Below, piece after piece: positions 21,186-32,535 of a stretch of DNA of 64,000 nt. This stretch comes from Nitrosomonas sp. HPC101 (GTDB taxonomy: Bacteria; Pseudomonadota; Gammaproteobacteria; Burkholderiales; Nitrosomonadaceae). Each line of letters starts with the position of its first letter. Positions within the stretch are counted from its first letter, which is position 1. Location: the NCBI RefSeq assembly GCF_009833125.1, contig NZ_QRCC01000005.1, positions 62,001-126,000 on the forward strand, written 5' to 3'. The position numbers and the translations under genes are program-made. The notes under the pieces were generated by a model. That model worked only from the letters and a program-made list of their open reading frames with translations. It searched no databases and was not told where the DNA came from.

Positions 21186-22295
21186 ATGAACCTGGAATCA
21201 CTCCTAAACCAGTTGAATAACCATCAGAATGATCTGGCTATCAGCATCCTGCTGCCTACTCACCGGACTTTCCCGGATAACAAACAGGATGCAATCGCTC
21301 TGAAAAATCTGATCAAGGAAGCCGAGGATCGCTTAAATACCCAGCTGGACAAGCGTGAGGTTGAAGTGATGATCGATGCAATTCATAAAAAAATTGATGC
21401 GCTTGATCATAATTACAATCTTGACAGCTTGGGTATTTTTGCTAATCGTCACGGTGTGACGGCTGCACGTTTTCCGTTTGCAGTCGGGGAGCAACGGGTA
21501 ATCATCGATGATACCTTTGCTGTGCGCGATCTCGTGCGGGCAATCAATGATGCAGTTCATTATCATGTGCTGGTGATTTCGCGGACGTCTGCCCGCCTGA
21601 TTGAAGCGTTTAATGATCGTCCGATCCATGAATTTGATTCAAAAACTGTCTTGAGAACAGGCAGTTTTCCGGCAGAAAATCCGTTTCTGTTTGCTGCGAA
21701 AGGATTGGATCGTGCTCAGATTCCTAATGACGCAGGCAATCTTAAGGAATTTTTTAATCGCGTGGATAAAAGTCTGCAAGAGATTCAGAACAACCCTGAA
21801 AATAAGCGTTTGCCGGTCATCGTAGTGGGGGATTCGCGTAATGTTGCTTTTTTTAAGGAAGTCTGTGATCAACCGACTGATATTGTCGGAGCGGTCACCA
21901 CTGTGCCTGATTTAAAGATAGCTGCTGAGAAACTTATTCCGGAAGTACAAACCGTATTGACTGAATATCGTCTCAACCGAGCTAAAACTGCCTTGCAGCA
22001 TCTTGCTCAGGCGCGTAATGCACATCAGTTACTGACAGACTTCTCCATGATTCTTCGGGCGATTATTGAAGGCAATGCGGCGCGCTTGTTCGTGCGCCAG
22101 GGTTATATTCAACCCGGTGTCATTGATTTCGACCAGAAAATCGTTACTGTTCACGATGCTGCTGCAACTGATGTGACAGATGACGTAGTGGATACATTTA
22201 TCGAGCTGGTCATGCAGCAGGGCGGGGAGATCTGTTTCTTGTCAGCTGAGCAACTGGGAGAGGAGAAGCCGCTCAGTTTGCAGACAAGATATTGA
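21186..22295 (+). CDS. bacterial eRF1-like (baeRF) protein, possible ribosome-hibernation factor
   Basis: 369 residues. The N-terminus (LAISILLPTHRTFPDNKQDA, then LKNLIKEAEDRL) is typical of baeRF-type proteins, distant homologues of archaeal/eukaryotic release factor 1 and Pelota. The middle (YHVLVISRTSARLIEAFND) and the C-terminal L7Ae/eRF1 domain-3-like part (IIEGNAARLFVRQGYIQPG) follow that plan. I see no NIKS or GGQ motif, so peptide release is not expected. The family includes Balon, which occupies the ribosomal A site in cold-stressed Psychrobacter; whether this protein belongs to that subgroup is an inference. A strong AAGGA site precedes the ATG. The next gene follows by 26 bp. Confidence 0.75.
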   Translation: MNLESLLNQLNNHQNDLAISILLPTHRTFPDNKQDAIALKNLIKEAEDRLNTQLDKREVEVMIDAIHKKIDALDHNYNLDSLGIFANRHGVTAARFPFAVGEQRVIIDDTFAVRDLVRAINDAVHYHVLVISRTSARLIEAFNDRPIHEFDSKTVLRTGSFPAENPFLFAAKGLDRAQIPNDAGNLKEFFNRVDKSLQEIQNNPENKRLPVIVVGDSRNVAFFKEVCDQPTDIVGAVTTVPDLKIAAEKLIPEVQTVLTEYRLNRAKTALQHLAQARNAHQLLTDFSMILRAIIEGNAARLFVRQGYIQPGVIDFDQKIVTVHDAAATDVTDDVVDTFIELVMQQGGEICFLSAEQLGEEKPLSLQTRY

Positions 22296-23708: not shown

Positions 23709-25430
23709 ATGCTTGTTTCAAAATTTATAGTGGCCGGCTGCATGTTGACGCTGGCAATTACAGAGATTCCCTGTTCATTTGCCCATACTGATCATGGCAG
23801 CAATGAAATACCTGCCATGACCAGCGGCGAATCTGCCAGGACGGCGACGGATGAATCATTGGCGGATGAACGACAAGCCTCGGCGCTGCTGAATCTCGGC
23901 ACGCATACGTTTCCTGTCAGCACAAAAAACGGATTGGCCCAGCAGTTTATCAATCAGGGGATCAATCTTGCCTATGGTTTTAATCATGCCGAAGCCGGCC
24001 GTGCATTCAAGGAAGCTGCCCGGCTGGATCCTGCACTGGCAATGGCGTATTGGGGGCAGGCGCTGGTGCTTGGCCCCAATATCAATGCAGTAATGGATGC
24101 AGGTGAAGAGCCGCAGGCGGTTAAGCTGATTAATCAGGCAAAATTACACATGGTTACGGCGTCACCAAAAGAACAGGCACTGATACAGGCGCTTGAAAAA
24201 CGCTATTCAGGCATGGCTGGAGATCGCAAGATCAATGATAAAGCGTACGCGGATGCCATGCGCGAAGTTCATCACCGCTTTCCGGGCGATCCGGATATTG
24301 CCATGCTGTATGTGGAATCCACCATGAATCTTCGTCCCTGGGGTTATTGGATGCGTGATGGTTACCCGTATGCAGGCACAGATGAAATTGTAGCATTGAC
24401 CGAAGATATATTACGCCGCTACCCGAAGCACCCCGGCGCGTTGCATATGTATATCCACCTGATGGAGCCTACATCCAGTCCTGAGCGTGCCGAGCGGGCA
24501 GCAGATACGCTGCTGACACTGATGCCGCAAGCAGGGCATATGATTCACATGGCTTCGCATATCTATCAGCGTGTGGGCCGTTATGCAGATGCCATGAAAA
24601 GCAACCAGATGGCAATCAGGGCTGACGAGGAATATATCGCGCAGTTTAAGGCGCAGGGGCTGTACCCGATGGCGTATTATCCACACAATATTCATTTTCT
24701 CTGGTTTGCTGCCTCAGCCAGCGGTCGGTATGCGCTGGCACTCAACAGCGCACGCGAAGCTGCCAGTAAAGTAGATGATACGTTATTGAATCAGCTGCCT
24801 TTTACTGCAACTTTCCGCGTGTTGCCTTACTGGACGCTTGCCCGGTTTGGACAATGGCAAAGTGTACTCGCAGAGCCTGCACCGCCTGTTGATAATGCCT
24901 TTCTAAGAGGCAGCTGGCATTATGTACGCGGCCTTGCTCATGTGGCGGTCGGACAATTACAGCAGGCACGGGAAGAACTGGAGCAATTGCGTGAAACGAT
25001 CCAGGATCCTTCGCTTGGCCGCCCGCTGCTTTCTCAAAATACAGCATATGCCATATTGAGAATCGCACCTGAAGTACTGGCCGGCGAAATCGAGGCGGCT
25101 CACGGAAAATTTGAATCCGCTGTTAGCCATCTGGAACGGGCCGTCCGGCTTGAGGATGGTCTGGTTTATACGGAACCGGCTGAATGGCATTACCCGCCAC
25201 GTCTGGCACTGGGCGCGATCCTGCTGGAATCGGGCCGTCCGGATGAAGCAGAAACCGTGTACTGGGAAGATCTGCGGCGCAATCGTGACAATGGCTGGGC
25301 ACTGTTTGGCCTGCAGCAGGCGCTGCGTGCACAAAACAAGACAGCAGAAGCAGATATGATCGAGGCGCGCTTCAGGAAAGCCTGGGAACATGCAGATATT
25401 ACCCTTTCTGCCTCCCGTATGGGGCAATGA
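23709..25430 (+). CDS. exported TPR-repeat protein of unknown function
   Basis: 573 residues. A signal peptide (about 1-25) is followed by an exported helical-repeat protein. TPR-like helices are clear at FNHAEAGRAFKEAARLDPAL (about 98-117), and further repeats lie in the C-terminal third (LRGSWHYVRGLAHVAVGQLQ; LALGAILLESGRPDEAETVY). A His/Met-rich central piece (GALHMYIHLMEP, GHMIHMASHIYQRVG) is conserved in this family and could bind metal, though no enzyme is known. Good AAGGAGAGG site; 22 bp after the aldehyde dehydrogenase, so probably co-transcribed. Periplasmic location inferred from the signal. Confidence 0.8.
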   Translation: MLVSKFIVAGCMLTLAITEIPCSFAHTDHGSNEIPAMTSGESARTATDESLADERQASALLNLGTHTFPVSTKNGLAQQFINQGINLAYGFNHAEAGRAFKEAARLDPALAMAYWGQALVLGPNINAVMDAGEEPQAVKLINQAKLHMVTASPKEQALIQALEKRYSGMAGDRKINDKAYADAMREVHHRFPGDPDIAMLYVESTMNLRPWGYWMRDGYPYAGTDEIVALTEDILRRYPKHPGALHMYIHLMEPTSSPERAERAADTLLTLMPQAGHMIHMASHIYQRVGRYADAMKSNQMAIRADEEYIAQFKAQGLYPMAYYPHNIHFLWFAASASGRYALALNSAREAASKVDDTLLNQLPFTATFRVLPYWTLARFGQWQSVLAEPAPPVDNAFLRGSWHYVRGLAHVAVGQLQQAREELEQLRETIQDPSLGRPLLSQNTAYAILRIAPEVLAGEIEAAHGKFESAVSHLERAVRLEDGLVYTEPAEWHYPPRLALGAILLESGRPDEAETVYWEDLRRNRDNGWALFGLQQALRAQNKTAEADMIEARFRKAWEHADITLSASRMGQ

Positions 25431-25618
25431 AACAGGAGCGGATAACATTCCAGTTTTATCCTCGTGCCTGTCAGGCTGGCGATGATCAGGAAGCTGGAAA
25501 GTGAAGGTATTCTGCTGTCTGGTCTCGCCTTAATCGCCCTCTTTAACGGTGATCACCGTACAAGTGGCGTTATAATCTGCCTTTTTTGAAAAGGACGGAT
25601 CATTGTCCTGAGTAGCTT

Positions 25619-27736
25619 ATGTCTGTTAAACCCGAATTGTTTCAAAGAACGCCTGCTCTGAGCGGTGATGATGCTGCAGCCAAGCGTGAGGAGTTGCGCG
25701 CCTATTTTCATACGACGCTGGATCGGTATGAGCGATTGTTCGAGACCCTGCGTAGTAATGAAGCTTATTACATCAAACCCATTGCGCTGCGCCATCCCCT
25801 GATTTTTTATCTGGGCCATACCGCTACTTTTTTCATCAATAAATTGATTCTGGCGGGTGTGCTGACGGAACGTATTGATTCTAGGCTGGAATCCATCTTT
25901 GCTGTGGGGGTGGATGAAATGAGCTGGGATGATCTGAATGCGACGCACTATGACTGGCCGACCGTTGAGGAGGTGATGGCTTATCGTCGTACTATGCGTG
26001 AGACAGTGGATGGCCTGATCAGCACGCTGCCACTGACTTTGCCGATTTCGTGGGAAAGCCCGTGGTGGGCGATTGTGATGGGGGTGGAGCATGAGCGTAT
26101 TCACCTGGAAACTTCTTCCGTGTTGATTCGTCAGCACAAGCTTGATCATGTACAGCCTCATCCTGCTTGGCAGTCCTGTCGCGGGAGCGGAAATGCACCG
26201 GAAAACGAGATGATCCCTGTGTCGGCTGGTAAGGTGATTTTGGGCAAGCGCAAAACCGACCCTGTGTATGGATGGGACAACGAGTATGGTCATCATGAGG
26301 CCGAATTGCCTGATTTTCAGGCCAGCCGCTATCTGGTAAGCAACCAGGAATTTCTCGATTTTGTCACCGCACACGGCTATGAAACGGATGATTACTGGGA
26401 GGAGGAAGGGCTGGCCTGGCGAAAATTCAGCAATGCTGCCCATCCGACGTTCTGGATCCGGCGCGAAGATCAATGGTGGCTGCGTCTGATGATGGAAGAA
26501 GTGCCTATGCCCTGGAACTGGCCGGTAGAGGTGAATTATCATGAGGCCAAAGCATTCTGCAACTGGCAGGCAAAAACAACCGGGCAGCCGGTACGTTTAC
26601 CCACTGAAGATGAATGGTACCGTTTGTACGATGTCGCCGGATTGGCCGAGGTATCCGGCGTTGAACGGGCACAGGGCAACATTCATCTTGATTACTATGC
26701 CTCCAGTTGTCCGGTAGATGAATTTCGGCAGGGCGAGTTTTTTGATGTGGTGGGCAATGTCTGGCAATGGACAGAAACGCCCATGCATCCATTTCCCGGT
26801 TTTGAGGTACATCCGCTATATGACGATTTCACGACGCCCACTTTTGATGATCGGCATAATCTCATCAAGGGAGGTTCATGGATTTCATGCGGAAATGAAT
26901 CCATCCACGCATCGCGCTATGCGTTCCGCAGGCACTTTTTTCAGCATGCCGGTTTTCGTTATGTGATTTCTGCCGTATCTGCTGCACACCACAGTTCACA
27001 CTACGAAACCGACCGATTATTGTCGGAGTATGCGGAATTTCACTACGGCGATACTTATTTCGATGTACCTAATTTTCCGGCGACACTGGCAAAACTGGCC
27101 ATTGCGGCAATGGGGGATCGTCCTGCACGTACTGCACTTGATCTGGGCTGTGCTTCCGGGCGGGCAACATTCGAGCTGGCGCAGCATTTCGATCATAGCA
27201 CCGGTGTTGATTTTTCCGCGCGCTTTATTAATCAGGGCGTGGCGTTGGCGGAACATGGCATTCTGCGTTATACCCTCGTGGATGAAGGAGAATTGGTTTC
27301 TTACCGGGAATGTACGCTTGCCGGATTGGGGCTGGAGGGCGTCAGACACAAGGTCGAATTTTTCCAGGGAGATGCCTGTAATCTTAAACCGATACTGACG
27401 GGATATGATTTGATCCTGGCAGCTAACCTGATTGATCGTTTGTATGAACCCGCCAGATTCCTGACAATGGTACATGAACGGCTTAATCAGGGAGGGTTGC
27501 TGCTGCTTGCTTCACCCTATACCTGGCTGGAGGAACACACCAAGCGAGCACATTGGATCGGTGGCTTCAAACGGGATGGTGAAAATTTCACTACACTGGA
27601 TGGCCTGAAAGAAATGCTCGGCAACCATTTTCAATTGCTTGGGGAGCCGCAGCAGGTACCGTTCGTGATCCGTGAAACCCGGCGCAAATTTCAGCATACG
27701 CTGTCGGAAGTGACTCTCTGGGAGAAGATTGCTTGA
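25619..27736 (+). CDS. ovoA: OvoA: 5-histidylcysteine sulfoxide synthase / 5-thiolhistidine N-methyltransferase
   Basis: 705 residues, the normal length of full OvoA. Three domains in order: DinB-like N-terminus with the iron-binding HxxxHxE in EHERIHLETSS (about residues 158-168); FGE/sulfatase-modifying-factor-like domain (ISAGKV-type start, RLPTEDEWYRLYDVAG, VVGNVWQWTETP, LIKGGSWISCGNESIHASRY; about 200-460); and a C-terminal SAM methyltransferase (ALDLGCASGRATFELAQHF, about 500-518). OvoA couples cysteine to histidine C5 with O2, and its methyltransferase makes the ovothiol N-methyl group. It overlaps ovoB by 4 bp. EgtB would lack the methyltransferase and be shorter. Confidence 0.93.
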   Translation: MSVKPELFQRTPALSGDDAAAKREELRAYFHTTLDRYERLFETLRSNEAYYIKPIALRHPLIFYLGHTATFFINKLILAGVLTERIDSRLESIFAVGVDEMSWDDLNATHYDWPTVEEVMAYRRTMRETVDGLISTLPLTLPISWESPWWAIVMGVEHERIHLETSSVLIRQHKLDHVQPHPAWQSCRGSGNAPENEMIPVSAGKVILGKRKTDPVYGWDNEYGHHEAELPDFQASRYLVSNQEFLDFVTAHGYETDDYWEEEGLAWRKFSNAAHPTFWIRREDQWWLRLMMEEVPMPWNWPVEVNYHEAKAFCNWQAKTTGQPVRLPTEDEWYRLYDVAGLAEVSGVERAQGNIHLDYYASSCPVDEFRQGEFFDVVGNVWQWTETPMHPFPGFEVHPLYDDFTTPTFDDRHNLIKGGSWISCGNESIHASRYAFRRHFFQHAGFRYVISAVSAAHHSSHYETDRLLSEYAEFHYGDTYFDVPNFPATLAKLAIAAMGDRPARTALDLGCASGRATFELAQHFDHSTGVDFSARFINQGVALAEHGILRYTLVDEGELVSYRECTLAGLGLEGVRHKVEFFQGDACNLKPILTGYDLILAANLIDRLYEPARFLTMVHERLNQGGLLLLASPYTWLEEHTKRAHWIGGFKRDGENFTTLDGLKEMLGNHFQLLGEPQQVPFVIRETRRKFQHTLSEVTLWEKIA

Positions 27737-28908
27737 GTAATGATTTCGATTGCGAAATTGATCGGAGCGGGACATACAGCACTAAATACGATGGTCGCGC
27801 GATAGCGTTCGGCCACCCGGACGTCATGCCGCTGTGGGTGGCCGATATGGATTTTGCTGCTCCGGCTGCTGTTACCGAAGCGTTGGCCAAACGTGCTGCT
27901 CACCCTGTTTATGGCTATACGCAACTGCCTGACAGTCTGTATGCTGCGCTGATTGACTGGTTGAAATCACGCCATGACTGGCAAATTGAGCGTGAATGGA
28001 TCGTTTTCTGTCCCGGTGTAGTACCCTCTCTGAGTACCACCCTCCTCGCACTGAGCGAGCCGGGTGAATCAGTTATTGTTCAGCCACCGGTGTACTACCC
28101 GTTCTTTTCGGTAGTCAAAAAAACCGGCAGAAGGCTGCTGAACAATGCGTTGCAACTGGAACAGGGGCGCTACGGCGTGAATTTTGCCGATTTGGCACAA
28201 CAGGCTGTCTCCGCGCGTATGCTGCTGTTTTGCTCACCCCATAATCCGGTTGGCCGAGTGTGGAGCAAGCCGGAGTTGGAAAGACTGCTGGATATTGCTG
28301 GACAACATCAGCTTATTATTATTTCTGACGAAATTCATGCCGATCTGATCTATCCGGATTATAAACATCACATATTGGCCCGCTTGGCAGATGCACCGGA
28401 AGCAGTTATCACGGCAGTGGCGCCCAGCAAAACGTTCAACATTCCGGGCCTTAACCTGTCCGCACTGATTGTTCCTGATCCGCAGTACCGGAGGGCCATC
28501 CGGAATCAACTGGAGAGGATGCATGTCAGTGCCGCCAACCCGTTCAGTGTGGTGGCGTTTGAAGCGGCTTATCATGCGGGTGGGGAGTGGCTGGATGCAC
28601 TGATGGCATATCTGGACACTTCACGCGAGATGGTTCGGCACTATCTGGCAGAGTATCTGCCACAAATTCAGCTGATTCCTTCGCAAGGTACCTATCTGTT
28701 GTGGCTCGATTGTCGTGGACTTGGTATGAACGATGATCAACTCAAACACTTTTTCATTTTTGAGGCCGGAATCGGCTTGAACGCTGGTATTACCTATGGC
28801 GAGGCGGGCAGCGGTTTCATGCGCATGAATATCGGAACCCCTCGCCGCCATATCAAACAAGCGCTGGATAATATTCGCAGCGCGCTTGAACGAAGAAGGG
28901 TTTCCTGA
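27733..28908 (+). CDS. ovoB: OvoB: PLP-dependent C-S lyase (PatB/MalY family)
   Basis: 391 residues, class I/II aminotransferase fold of the PatB/MalY cystathionine-lyase type. Motifs: LPLWVADMDF-type start, FCSPHNPVGRVWSKPEL, the Asp in IISDEIHADLIYP, and the PLP lysine in APSKTFNIPGLNLSALI. Start is TTG at 27733; its TTGA overlaps the ovoA stop, implying translational coupling. In ovothiol synthesis the lyase cleaves the histidylcysteine sulfoxide to 5-thiolhistidine, releasing pyruvate and ammonia. The position directly after ovoA makes this role far more likely than general cystathionine lysis, although the family is broad. Confidence 0.88.
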   Translation: MSNDFDCEIDRSGTYSTKYDGRAIAFGHPDVMPLWVADMDFAAPAAVTEALAKRAAHPVYGYTQLPDSLYAALIDWLKSRHDWQIEREWIVFCPGVVPSLSTTLLALSEPGESVIVQPPVYYPFFSVVKKTGRRLLNNALQLEQGRYGVNFADLAQQAVSARMLLFCSPHNPVGRVWSKPELERLLDIAGQHQLIIISDEIHADLIYPDYKHHILARLADAPEAVITAVAPSKTFNIPGLNLSALIVPDPQYRRAIRNQLERMHVSAANPFSVVAFEAAYHAGGEWLDALMAYLDTSREMVRHYLAEYLPQIQLIPSQGTYLLWLDCRGLGMNDDQLKHFFIFEAGIGLNAGITYGEAGSGFMRMNIGTPRRHIKQALDNIRSALERRRVS

Positions 28909-29005
28909 AAAGAAGTTGGTTCCCTGTGGCCTTGGGAAGAACTGGATGTTTTGTTGGAGATAATGTTGAATCTGTATTCTGCTTTTTCACTCTGGAATGC
29001 ACGCC

Positions 29006-30199: not shown

Positions 30200-30474
30200 A
30201 ATTAATCCGGATGCGTGAATACTGTAGTTATGCCACTTGGCGGATCGACTGGAAACGACTAGGATGGCAGAAGAAGTGCAATATGACGTCGGCAACAGTA
30301 TAAAAAGTCATCCCCTCATCCAGGCATTCCTTGGAATGTCTATGCCGTTTACGTGGCGCACGACAACGAGCACTATGGGTTACAAATTGTGGTGCGCTTT
30401 GATGGTGTAACGATGACAGAGCTGAATGACGAAGCGTCGGGGCAACTTGAGAATATATGGAAACAGGAGGTCGT

Positions 30475-31557
30475 ATGCCGGATAAAGATATACAGGATCG
30501 TGCCGCAGGAGCCATCATGGGCGCGTTTATCGGTGATGCTTTGGGATTGGGGCCGCATTGGTATTACAATCTTTCCGAGCTTCGTCGTGATTATGGTGAC
30601 TGGATCACCGGGTACACTGACCCCAGGCCGGATCGATATCATGCCGGGTTGAAAGCAGGGCAGTTATCACAGTCCGGCTTCATTCTGAAGCTGATGGTTC
30701 GTTCGCTGGTTGAGTGCGGTGGTTATGATTCTGAAGATTTCTGCCATCGCATGGATGGTGAGTTGTTTCCGTTACTGGATGGTACACCGGCTAACGGCCC
30801 GGGTGGCTATACCAGTCAGTCGATTCGTGAAACTTGGCGGCGGCGTGTGCAGCAGAAGCTGCCCTGGGGGCAGACGGGTAGTCACGCGGATACGACCGAG
30901 GCAGCGGAACGTACGCTTGCAATTGCCGTTCGTTACGGGGGCCGGCCAGACAAACTTGCAGCAGCAGTTTCAGCGAATACGATACTGACCCAGGCAGATG
31001 AAACAATTGTTTCGATGACCGTTGCATACGGTGCGGTACTGGGACTGCTGGTTCAGGGGCATGCGTTTGATACCGATTTATCGGGAAAACTCATGGATCT
31101 TGTAAAAAGTGGTGCGCTGCCGTTCCACGCTGTAACTGCTGATGATCTGCAACCACCGCGTCCTGGTGATCCGGATCCTCCGCGTGCAGGCCGTTTTGCT
31201 TCCCCGGATGCGTTGCTCACACCTTCTTATATGGCTGCAGCGGCCGCAGATCCCGAAATTCGGATCGAGCCGGCCTGGAAGGTGTCTATCGTATATGGCA
31301 TGCCGTGTGCGATTTATCACCAGTTACCGGCTGCCTATTATCTGGCCGCAAGGTTTCGTGACGATTTTAAATCAGCCGTTCTCCATGCGATCAATGGTGG
31401 AGGGCAGAACCAGGCGCGTGCCATTCTGACCGGGGCGCTCGTGGGTGCACAAACCGGTTTGTCCGGGATTCCACAGTATTTGCTTGACGGACTCGATGAT
31501 TCGGCAATGCTGGGTAAATTAGCGACGGATCTTGCTGCTATGGTGGATTCCGCCTGA
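30475..31557 (+). CDS. ADP-ribosylglycohydrolase-fold protein lacking metal ligands
   Basis: 360 residues from the ATG at 30475, chosen for the perfect AGGAGGT four bases upstream. The start (AAGAIMGAFIGDALGLGPHW) and end (ILTGALVGAQTGLSGIP) are those of the ARH/DraG/J1-crystallin fold. ARH enzymes remove ADP-ribose using two Mg ions held by Asp residues in TDDT and GGDTDT motifs. Here the first reads LSQSGF (about residues 66-71) and the second GGGQNQARA (about 309-317), so the ligands are Gln or Ser. It is probably not a classical hydrolase; a binding protein or altered enzyme is more likely. Followed by gnd and zwf (69 and 3 bp gaps). Confidence 0.8.
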   Translation: MPDKDIQDRAAGAIMGAFIGDALGLGPHWYYNLSELRRDYGDWITGYTDPRPDRYHAGLKAGQLSQSGFILKLMVRSLVECGGYDSEDFCHRMDGELFPLLDGTPANGPGGYTSQSIRETWRRRVQQKLPWGQTGSHADTTEAAERTLAIAVRYGGRPDKLAAAVSANTILTQADETIVSMTVAYGAVLGLLVQGHAFDTDLSGKLMDLVKSGALPFHAVTADDLQPPRPGDPDPPRAGRFASPDALLTPSYMAAAAADPEIRIEPAWKVSIVYGMPCAIYHQLPAAYYLAARFRDDFKSAVLHAINGGGQNQARAILTGALVGAQTGLSGIPQYLLDGLDDSAMLGKLATDLAAMVDSA

Positions 31558-31626
31558 GGCCGACGCTTTTGATTCCATGATCGATTGGTCGGTATTCCTG
31601 ATTGTATCTATACAAAGGAGAAGAAG

Positions 31627-32535
31627 ATGGAATTCGGTATGGTGGGTTTGGGGCGTATGGGCGGCAATATGGCACGCCGTCTCGCCCGGGGAGGTAAAAG
31701 AATTGCGATAACGAATCGCAGTTTTGATGTTACCGAGACACTGGCTGGTGAAACGGGGCACAGTGCGTGCAGAAACTATGCCGATCTCGTCGCCGCGCTT
31801 GAGAAGCCTCGCATCATATGGCTGATGCTGCCAGCGGGTGAAGTCACTGAAACAGCGCTTTCCGTATTGTTACCGTTGTTGTCGCCAGGTGATCTGATCG
31901 TGGATGGTGCCAATGCACATTATCAAGAGGATGCACTGCGTGCGGCGCGTTGTGCAGAGCAGGGTATCGAATTTGCTGATGCCGGGGTCTCCGGAGGAAT
32001 ATGGGGACTGGAAAATGGCTATTGCATTATGTTTGGTGGATCGGATGCGGTTGCAGCACGCCTGAAACCCTATATGGAAGCGTTGGCACCCACCCCGGAG
32101 ACGGGTTGGTTGCATACTGGCCCGGTTGGATCGGGACATTATGTGAAAATGATTCATAACGGGATCGAATACGGCATGATGCAAGCCTTTGCCGAAGGGT
32201 TTGCGCTGATGAAGGATAAACCAGGGTTTGATCTTGATCTTGCCGCGATTGCTGAATTGTGGCGACACGGCAGCGTGGTGCGTTCGTGGCTGCTGGATTT
32301 GTCTGCGGACTTTCTGGCTGCAGATCAGATGCTTGATGATATTGCTCCTTTTGTGGCGGATTCAGGCGAAGGTCGCTGGACGGCACTTGCCTCTCTGGAG
32401 CAGGGAATTCCAGCCCCTGTGATCACACTTGCACTGATGATGCGGTTTGCTACGCAAGGCAAGAATGATTATGCCGCCAAAATACTTGCGAAAATGCGCC
32501 ATGGTTTTGGTGGCCATGCCATCAGGAGGGATTAA
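31627..32535 (+). CDS. gnd: 6-phosphogluconate dehydrogenase, decarboxylating (short type)
   Basis: 302 residues from the ATG at 31627 (AAAGGAG upstream). The N-terminal Rossmann motif is GLGRMGGNMARRL. The substrate signature DAGVSGGIWGLENGYCIMFGG-type region and the catalytic Lys/His in YVKMIHNGIEYGMMQAFAEG (about residues 168-187) are complete. It converts 6-phosphogluconate to ribulose-5-phosphate and CO2 with NAD(P) reduction. The short, roughly 300-residue form is the GntZ/YqeC-like class, often NAD-preferring. zwf follows after 3 bp, so the two oxidative pentose-phosphate enzymes are coupled. Confidence 0.95.
   Translation: MEFGMVGLGRMGGNMARRLARGGKRIAITNRSFDVTETLAGETGHSACRNYADLVAALEKPRIIWLMLPAGEVTETALSVLLPLLSPGDLIVDGANAHYQEDALRAARCAEQGIEFADAGVSGGIWGLENGYCIMFGGSDAVAARLKPYMEALAPTPETGWLHTGPVGSGHYVKMIHNGIEYGMMQAFAEGFALMKDKPGFDLDLAAIAELWRHGSVVRSWLLDLSADFLAADQMLDDIAPFVADSGEGRWTALASLEQGIPAPVITLALMMRFATQGKNDYAAKILAKMRHGFGGHAIRRD

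Follow-up and report, generated by a model that had tools for sequence, protein, structure and literature searches.

A probable two-gene ovothiol A operon (ovoA-ovoB) with a conserved weak, overlapping ovoB start in Nitrosomonas sp. HPC101 and its family

Introduction

Can a betaproteobacterial ammonia oxidiser make the thiol antioxidant ovothiol A, and with which genes? The question is raised by two adjoining genes, ovoA and ovoB, in a stretch of 64,000 nucleotides from Nitrosomonas sp. HPC101 (assembly GCF_009833125.1, contig NZ_QRCC01000005.1, positions 62,001 to 126,000 of the forward strand). This whole stretch is called the window below, and coordinates are given in its own numbering. 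Our analysis indicated that the pair is very probably a translationally coupled ovothiol A operon. This reading was favoured by the equivalog scores of OvoA, its match to the solved structure 8khq, the invariant residues of the proteins, the conservation of both the pair and the TTG start of ovoB, and the presence of the glutathione synthetase GshB and the ammonia monooxygenase subunit AmoA in the genome.

Passages in three papers give the order of reactions: OvoA couples histidine and cysteine oxidatively, OvoB cleaves the C-S bond, and the C-terminal part of OvoA carries out the N-methylation (PMC12631010, PMC10903977, PMC9103826). In HPC101, the N-terminal iron domain of OvoA would use O2 to attach the cysteine sulfur to free histidine at C5, yielding 5-histidylcysteine sulfoxide. 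OvoB, a C-S lyase dependent on pyridoxal phosphate (PLP), would then release 5-thiohistidine, pyruvate and ammonia, and the C-terminal S-adenosylmethionine (SAM) methyltransferase domain of OvoA would methylate the imidazole ring to give ovothiol A. Ribosomes ending ovoA would start again at the ovoB TTG that overlaps it, and this conserved weak start probably holds OvoB low relative to OvoA. In betaproteobacterial ammonia oxidisers the product would most likely be one of the core small-molecule thiols, working alongside glutathione.

Results

The ovoA gene (25619..27736, plus strand, ATG start) encodes 705 amino acids (aa), and the protein is predicted to be a full-length bifunctional OvoA, in which a 5-histidylcysteine sulfoxide synthase is fused to a 5-thiohistidine N-methyltransferase. 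The N-terminal sulfoxide synthase region with its DinB_2 (PF12867) and FGE-sulfatase (PF03781) domains (25649..26965, aa 11-449) scored 707.1 bits on the NCBIfam equivalog model TIGR04344 (cut-off 400), and the C-terminal SAM methyltransferase domain (27002..27727, aa 462-703) scored 342.6 bits on the equivalog model TIGR04345 (cut-off 170). The top solved-structure match was PDB 8khq (E 1.6e-286, aa 22-704), whose record is named 5-histidylcysteine sulfoxide synthase/putative 4-mercaptohistidine N1-methyltransferase; EgtB-IV and OvoM structures came next, matching the two halves of the protein (9bxl OvoM on the methyltransferase domain, E 2.1e-74). An iron-binding HxxxHxE motif, H158-x3-H162-x-E164, is encoded at 26090..26110 and is also found in 8khq. 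The full-length OvoA with this motif and a C-terminal methyltransferase that the first-pass annotation had described was thus borne out, and chance open reading frames (ORFs) were ruled out by the confirmed ORFs together with the family-model matches. H158, H162, H67 (codon 25817..25819) and Y401 (codon 26819..26821) were kept in all 138 aligned OvoA proteins. H67 is a predicted iron ligand, the site being presumably ligated by three histidines as in the EgtB triad. Y401 lies in the motif PLYDDF, is aligned with a tyrosine of 8khq and is a candidate active-site residue; judged from its position, it may be the counterpart of Tyr417, which a passage in PMC10903977 gives as the active-site tyrosine of Erwinia OvoA.

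The DinB-FGE architecture is common to the synthases of related pathways, and OvoA did reach 178.6 bits on the EgtB model and 163.5 bits on the SenA model. However, both scores are less than half of the respective cut-offs (360 and 420), and OvsA structures matched far more poorly than 8khq, so an EgtB, SenA or OvsA identity was rejected. No EgtB was found in the genome, where this OvoA was the only protein with an FGE-sulfatase domain match. The sole match to the EgtD family (PF10017) covered 70 of 304 positions with 25.9 bits, nominally above Pfam's threshold of 23; this fragment is read as a generic methyltransferase, which leaves the genome with no credible EgtD. An ergothioneine- or selenoneine-type product is therefore barely credible. 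Another view, that OvoA is chiefly an oxygenase of cysteine or thiols, or yields a different 5-thiohistidine derivative, is very unlikely, although a reference title in PMC10903977 names thiol oxygenase beside sulfoxide synthase activity for the OvoA of Methyloversatilis, and a passage in PMC12631010 has N-acetyl-5-thiohistidine produced by some Bacteroidota. Here the methyltransferase domain is complete and a C-S lyase is coupled to the synthase, whereas no acetyltransferase appeared among the five neighbouring proteins scanned.

The ovoB gene (27733..28908, plus strand, TTG start) encodes a putative PLP-dependent C-S lyase of the PatB family with 391 aa and a fold match to 5z0q, a structure entitled 'Crystal Structure of OvoB'. 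It scored 555.8 bits on TIGR04350 (cut-off 340). Because TIGR04350, as a subfamily model, covers PatB-type C-S lyases broadly, the match alone means a C-S lyase and not OvoB. The predicted Schiff-base lysine, K233 in SKTFN (codon 28429..28431), whose role we take from family knowledge, was kept in 129/129 aligned OvoB sequences (as number 232 of that alignment) and was likewise invariant in the 20-sequence alignment A2. Sequence and fold indicate a C-S lyase, and its identity as OvoB comes from the linkage to ovoA.

This linkage was strong in the family. We fetched 106 of the 115 other Nitrosomonadaceae loci with OvoA over the cut-off, leaving out those of G028, G029, G039, G054, G057, G060, G063, G071 and G081. 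In all 106, an ovoB relative lay downstream of ovoA on the same strand; with the exception of locus L069, its homology started at most 39 bases past the end of ovoA, and the match was partial in two loci (L094, and L148 at a contig end). Among family loci with enough flank, the close neighbours seen in the window were rare near the pair: the tetratricopeptide repeat (TPR) gene occurred in 2/100, the aldehyde dehydrogenase gene in 2/96 and the DnaJ-like gene in 4/96. The widest cluster of neighbouring ORFs reached 28 of 107 loci. The pair is thus held together while its surroundings change, and by the same counts a larger conserved operon was rejected.

The two genes overlap by 4 bp (TTGA, 27733..27736, plus strand), the TTG of ovoB standing within the end of ovoA, just as the first-pass annotation had it. 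Homology begins at residue 3-4, and in 73 of 107 family loci the overlap start was the sole candidate upstream of that homology, which makes the TTG start credible. In these 107 loci, which include the window, the codon in the ovoB frame at the overlap was TTG in 96, GTG in 7 and CTG in 1 (L147, with an in-frame ATG 15 bases further upstream); L062, L065 and L096 had another layout at the junction. Counted from ovoA's own first stop, TTG numbers 95, as the interrupted L069 drops out. An in-frame ATG was found at the overlap in none of the 107 loci, the letters ATG in L062 lying in a frame other than that of ovoB. The T of TTG doubles as third base of the last ovoA codon, mostly alanine GCT (41) or serine TCT (33), so that an ATG would usually need one synonymous change.

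When the last ovoA codon was fourfold degenerate (n=94), its third base was T in 85, G in 7, C in 2 and A in 0. The 107 loci behind this count take in L069 and L065, in which the last codon lies elsewhere than at a TTGA overlap. The genomes, being related, are not independent samples, and the spread over the other fourfold sites of ovoA served as the control. In the 256 fourfold columns that could be compared, the most frequent base had a median share of 0.47. Only one column reached 0.84 or more: a T column at 0.894 with a variable amino acid, which stands last in the list and by that place is the overlap column, making it the most biased fourfold site of ovoA. A column without any A was likewise found once in 256. 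GCT is otherwise the least used alanine codon in the ovoA genes of the family (1057/5433). At other NTGA overlaps of long ORFs in the same DNA, antisense and chance ORFs included, the first base was C in 13, T in 9, A in 6 and G in 3 (T 9/31); as these show no such bias, the preference for T at ovoB is not general in this DNA. The fourfold bias, together with its absence from other overlaps, points to selection favouring a weak, coupled ovoB start, which may plausibly set the ratio of OvoA to OvoB.

The genome of HPC101 (2.52 Mb) carries AmoA (PF02461, 378.6 bits), which shares 99% identity with the Nitrosomonas eutropha Nm24 protein (among the best 80 of 407 candidates), and GshB (419.3 bits). 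Its nearest OvoA relatives in the tree were those of G015 and G016, which correspond to N. eutropha Nm57 and Nm24 because their matches fall at identical positions. The first-pass annotation had claimed a complete route to ovothiol from two overlap-coupled genes; for this ammonia oxidiser the claim is supported, at the level of sequence, by the domains, the 8khq match, AmoA, the invariant residues and the pair in 106/106 loci.

The annotation had also proposed to look for the pair in other Nitrosomonadaceae. Counted at the model cut-off, OvoA was present in 116 of 125 genomes of the family and in 97 of the 99 of good quality; a tally at E 0.001, which takes in weaker FGE-domain matches, gave 121/125 and 99/99. 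The carriers included genomes whose titles name Nitrosomonas eutropha, N. communis and Nitrosospira multiformis. AmoA was found in 67/125 family genomes, a figure probably lowered by the loss of multi-copy amo operons during assembly. In wider samples OvoA exceeded the cut-off in 43 of 300 genomes of the order, nine of them Nitrosomonadaceae, and in 19 of 369 genomes of the class, two of them Nitrosomonadaceae. In a FastTree phylogeny (138 OvoA sequences, a single distant locus as root), all 107 family sequences formed one clade (support 0.919) and four genera each had a clade of their own (1.0, 0.99, 0.99 and 0.488), which fits vertical inheritance within Nitrosomonadaceae. Outside the family, f15, f20 and f37 were not clades and several deep branches had low support (0.0 and 0.447 among them), so that OvoA may have been transferred or lost within the order.

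Several observations weigh against an ovothiol operon. The predicted structure of the lyase (mean predicted local distance difference test score, pLDDT, 86.5) was closest to 4dgt (38% identity) and Bacillus PatB 6qp3 (40% identity), with template modelling (TM) scores of 0.93-0.94; 5z0q stood below both (35-36% identity, TM about 0.88). By a yardstick of our own, which is unpublished, the lyase should resemble characterised OvoB more closely than it does PatB lyases in general; it was nearer to the PatB/cystathionine beta-lyases in both sequence and fold, and its substrate is therefore deduced from the operon. In the family, OvoA over the cut-off was missing from two good-quality genomes of 99, G055 and G069, and the ovoA of L069 was interrupted. 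Of 31 outgroup OvoA loci, 23 had an ovoB relative in the stretch that was fetched and 8 showed none there; in L159, L166 and L167 it lay about 0.7 kb further on, and the other outgroup junctions varied between GTG, TTG or ATG overlaps and spaced starts. The gaps in G055 and G069 are possibly assembly gaps, possibly real losses that would be useful as natural controls; G055 carries AmoA. In L069 (G019:C23:26494-35813, a Nitrosomonas genome) the open frame of ovoA ends at a premature stop after 541 aa and is followed by a further open stretch and ovoB, the gene being either a recent pseudogene or affected by a sequencing error.

A rival reading, which the structural result favours, is that the downstream gene is mainly a housekeeping cystathionine beta-lyase of PatB/MetC type with an incidental role in ovothiol synthesis. 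This would also suit the breadth of TIGR04350, the description of OvoB in a passage of PMC12631010 as a broad-specificity lyase, and the fact that this gene was the only PatB-family match over the cut-off in the genome. However, a housekeeping gene does not readily account for a relative after ovoA in every one of the family loci, with a conserved overlap amid variable close neighbours, and we consider this explanation improbable. An ovothiol operon remained the preferred reading.

Is the pair then linked with ammonia oxidation as such? From the best 80 of the 407 AmoA candidates we searched 37 underlying genomes for OvoA, namely those of all 25 loci with Nitrospirota titles and of 12 named betaproteobacterial ammonia oxidisers from the remaining 55 loci, several of the latter being the same genomes as in the family set. 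OvoA exceeded the cut-off in 12/12 of the named betaproteobacterial ammonia oxidisers and in 0/25 comammox Nitrospira genomes (completeness not stated), one of which had a sub-cut-off match of 211.5 bits. The class sample held 11 genomes positive for ammonia or particulate methane monooxygenase (AMO/pMMO); nine lay outside the family, and one of these nine had OvoA over the cut-off (G757, C1:39706-40407 and C4:17891-19207). Ovothiol is thus not a general accompaniment of ammonia oxidation, and OvoA as a marker specific to that metabolism was rejected. By its distribution in these genomes, the pair is a lineage trait of the betaproteobacterial ammonia oxidisers.

As to the surroundings, a 573-aa TPR-rich protein of unknown function is encoded just upstream of ovoA (23709-25430). 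Further away are a ribosome hibernation factor of the AOC03_06830 family (21186-22295; NF052287, 447.6 bits, cut-off 330) and a protein of the ADP-ribosylglycohydrolase family (30457-31557; PF03747, 187.2 bits, under the NCBIfam DraG cut-off). These two genes and the one at 31585-32535 were mostly beyond the fetched flanks in relatives. The aldehyde dehydrogenase ORF upstream of ovoA has a possible TTG start that overlaps the preceding hibernation factor ORF by 4 bp (22292-22295); it is probably not the real start, since the corresponding base is C in the relative L047. An Rfam scan of the window found no RNA elements. Promoter and terminator predictions (5 and 4, against shuffle means of 3.6 and 3.6) were uninformative, and the only repeat in 25400-29000 was one inverted pair, 80% complementary, inside ovoA.

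Discussion

The pathway itself is known and its chemistry ordinary, and we found no earlier report of it for the Nitrosomonadaceae lineage. What is new is that nearly every genome of the family has OvoA, that none of the comammox genomes tested has it over the cut-off, and that the weak start of ovoB is conserved. No paper linking ovothiol to Nitrosomonas or to ammonia oxidation came up in a full-text literature search, although a Proteobacteria-wide survey of OvoA and OvoB that lies outside that search may list Nitrosomonadaceae; the survey is cited in a passage of PMC9103826. Within the literature searched, this agrees with the statement in the first-pass annotation that no characterised ovothiol was known from ammonia oxidisers. 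The enzyme name, combined with ammonia-oxidiser terms, appeared in none of the matches listed; Nitrosomonas with low-molecular-weight thiol gave, judged from the listing, unrelated literature only; and ovothiol with nitric oxide gave no title on ammonia oxidisers among the matches listed. The words 'sulfoxide', 'sulfatase', 'antioxidant' and 'glutathione' were absent from the main text of the proteomics paper PMC5960693, the part of that paper covered here.

Since most related genomes keep the pair, ovothiol is probably basic to the handling of redox stress by these bacteria. The first-pass annotation had suggested that a strongly reducing thiol protects against the hydroxylamine and nitric oxide of ammonia oxidation. 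Given the comammox and AMO/pMMO counts, this was not supported as a general rule and the comparison does not favour it, though it may be a solution specific to this lineage. A bolder proposal casts ovothiol as a redox cofactor that betaproteobacterial ammonia oxidisers make constitutively and can hardly do without. It would be tied either to their nitrosative chemistry (involving nitric oxide, HNO or hydroxylamine) or to an undiscovered dedicated ovothiol-using enzyme, and the weak coupled start of ovoB would be under selection to balance supply and cleavage of the sulfoxide. We put this forward tentatively and hold it to be rather doubtful. If the operon does make ovothiol, important nitrifiers would carry a second thiol beside glutathione, which would be relevant to their handling of nitric oxide and nitrous oxide, and a family in which the operon is seldom missing would be a place to test the role of ovothiol.

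Comparison with known systems

The closest known system is the bacterial OvoA of 8khq, which shares the two-domain architecture along the aligned region and has both HxxxHxE and PxYDDF; the two proteins differ by sequence divergence only, and no function-related difference was seen. The EgtB, SenA and OvsA synthases have the DinB and FGE-sulfatase architecture in common with the OvoA of the window, whereas the latter has a fused C-terminal methyltransferase in a genome without a credible EgtD. The PatB/cystathionine beta-lyases (6qp3, 4dgt and 9k71) are nearest to the lyase by sequence and fold, with 36-40% identity; their titles name C-S or cystathionine lyases or a putative aminotransferase, while the gene in the window is locked to ovoA. 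With the OvoB of 5z0q the lyase shares the PLP fold, yet at the lower identity given above, and relative to that protein it is set apart by a gene that directly adjoins ovoA through a conserved TTG overlap.

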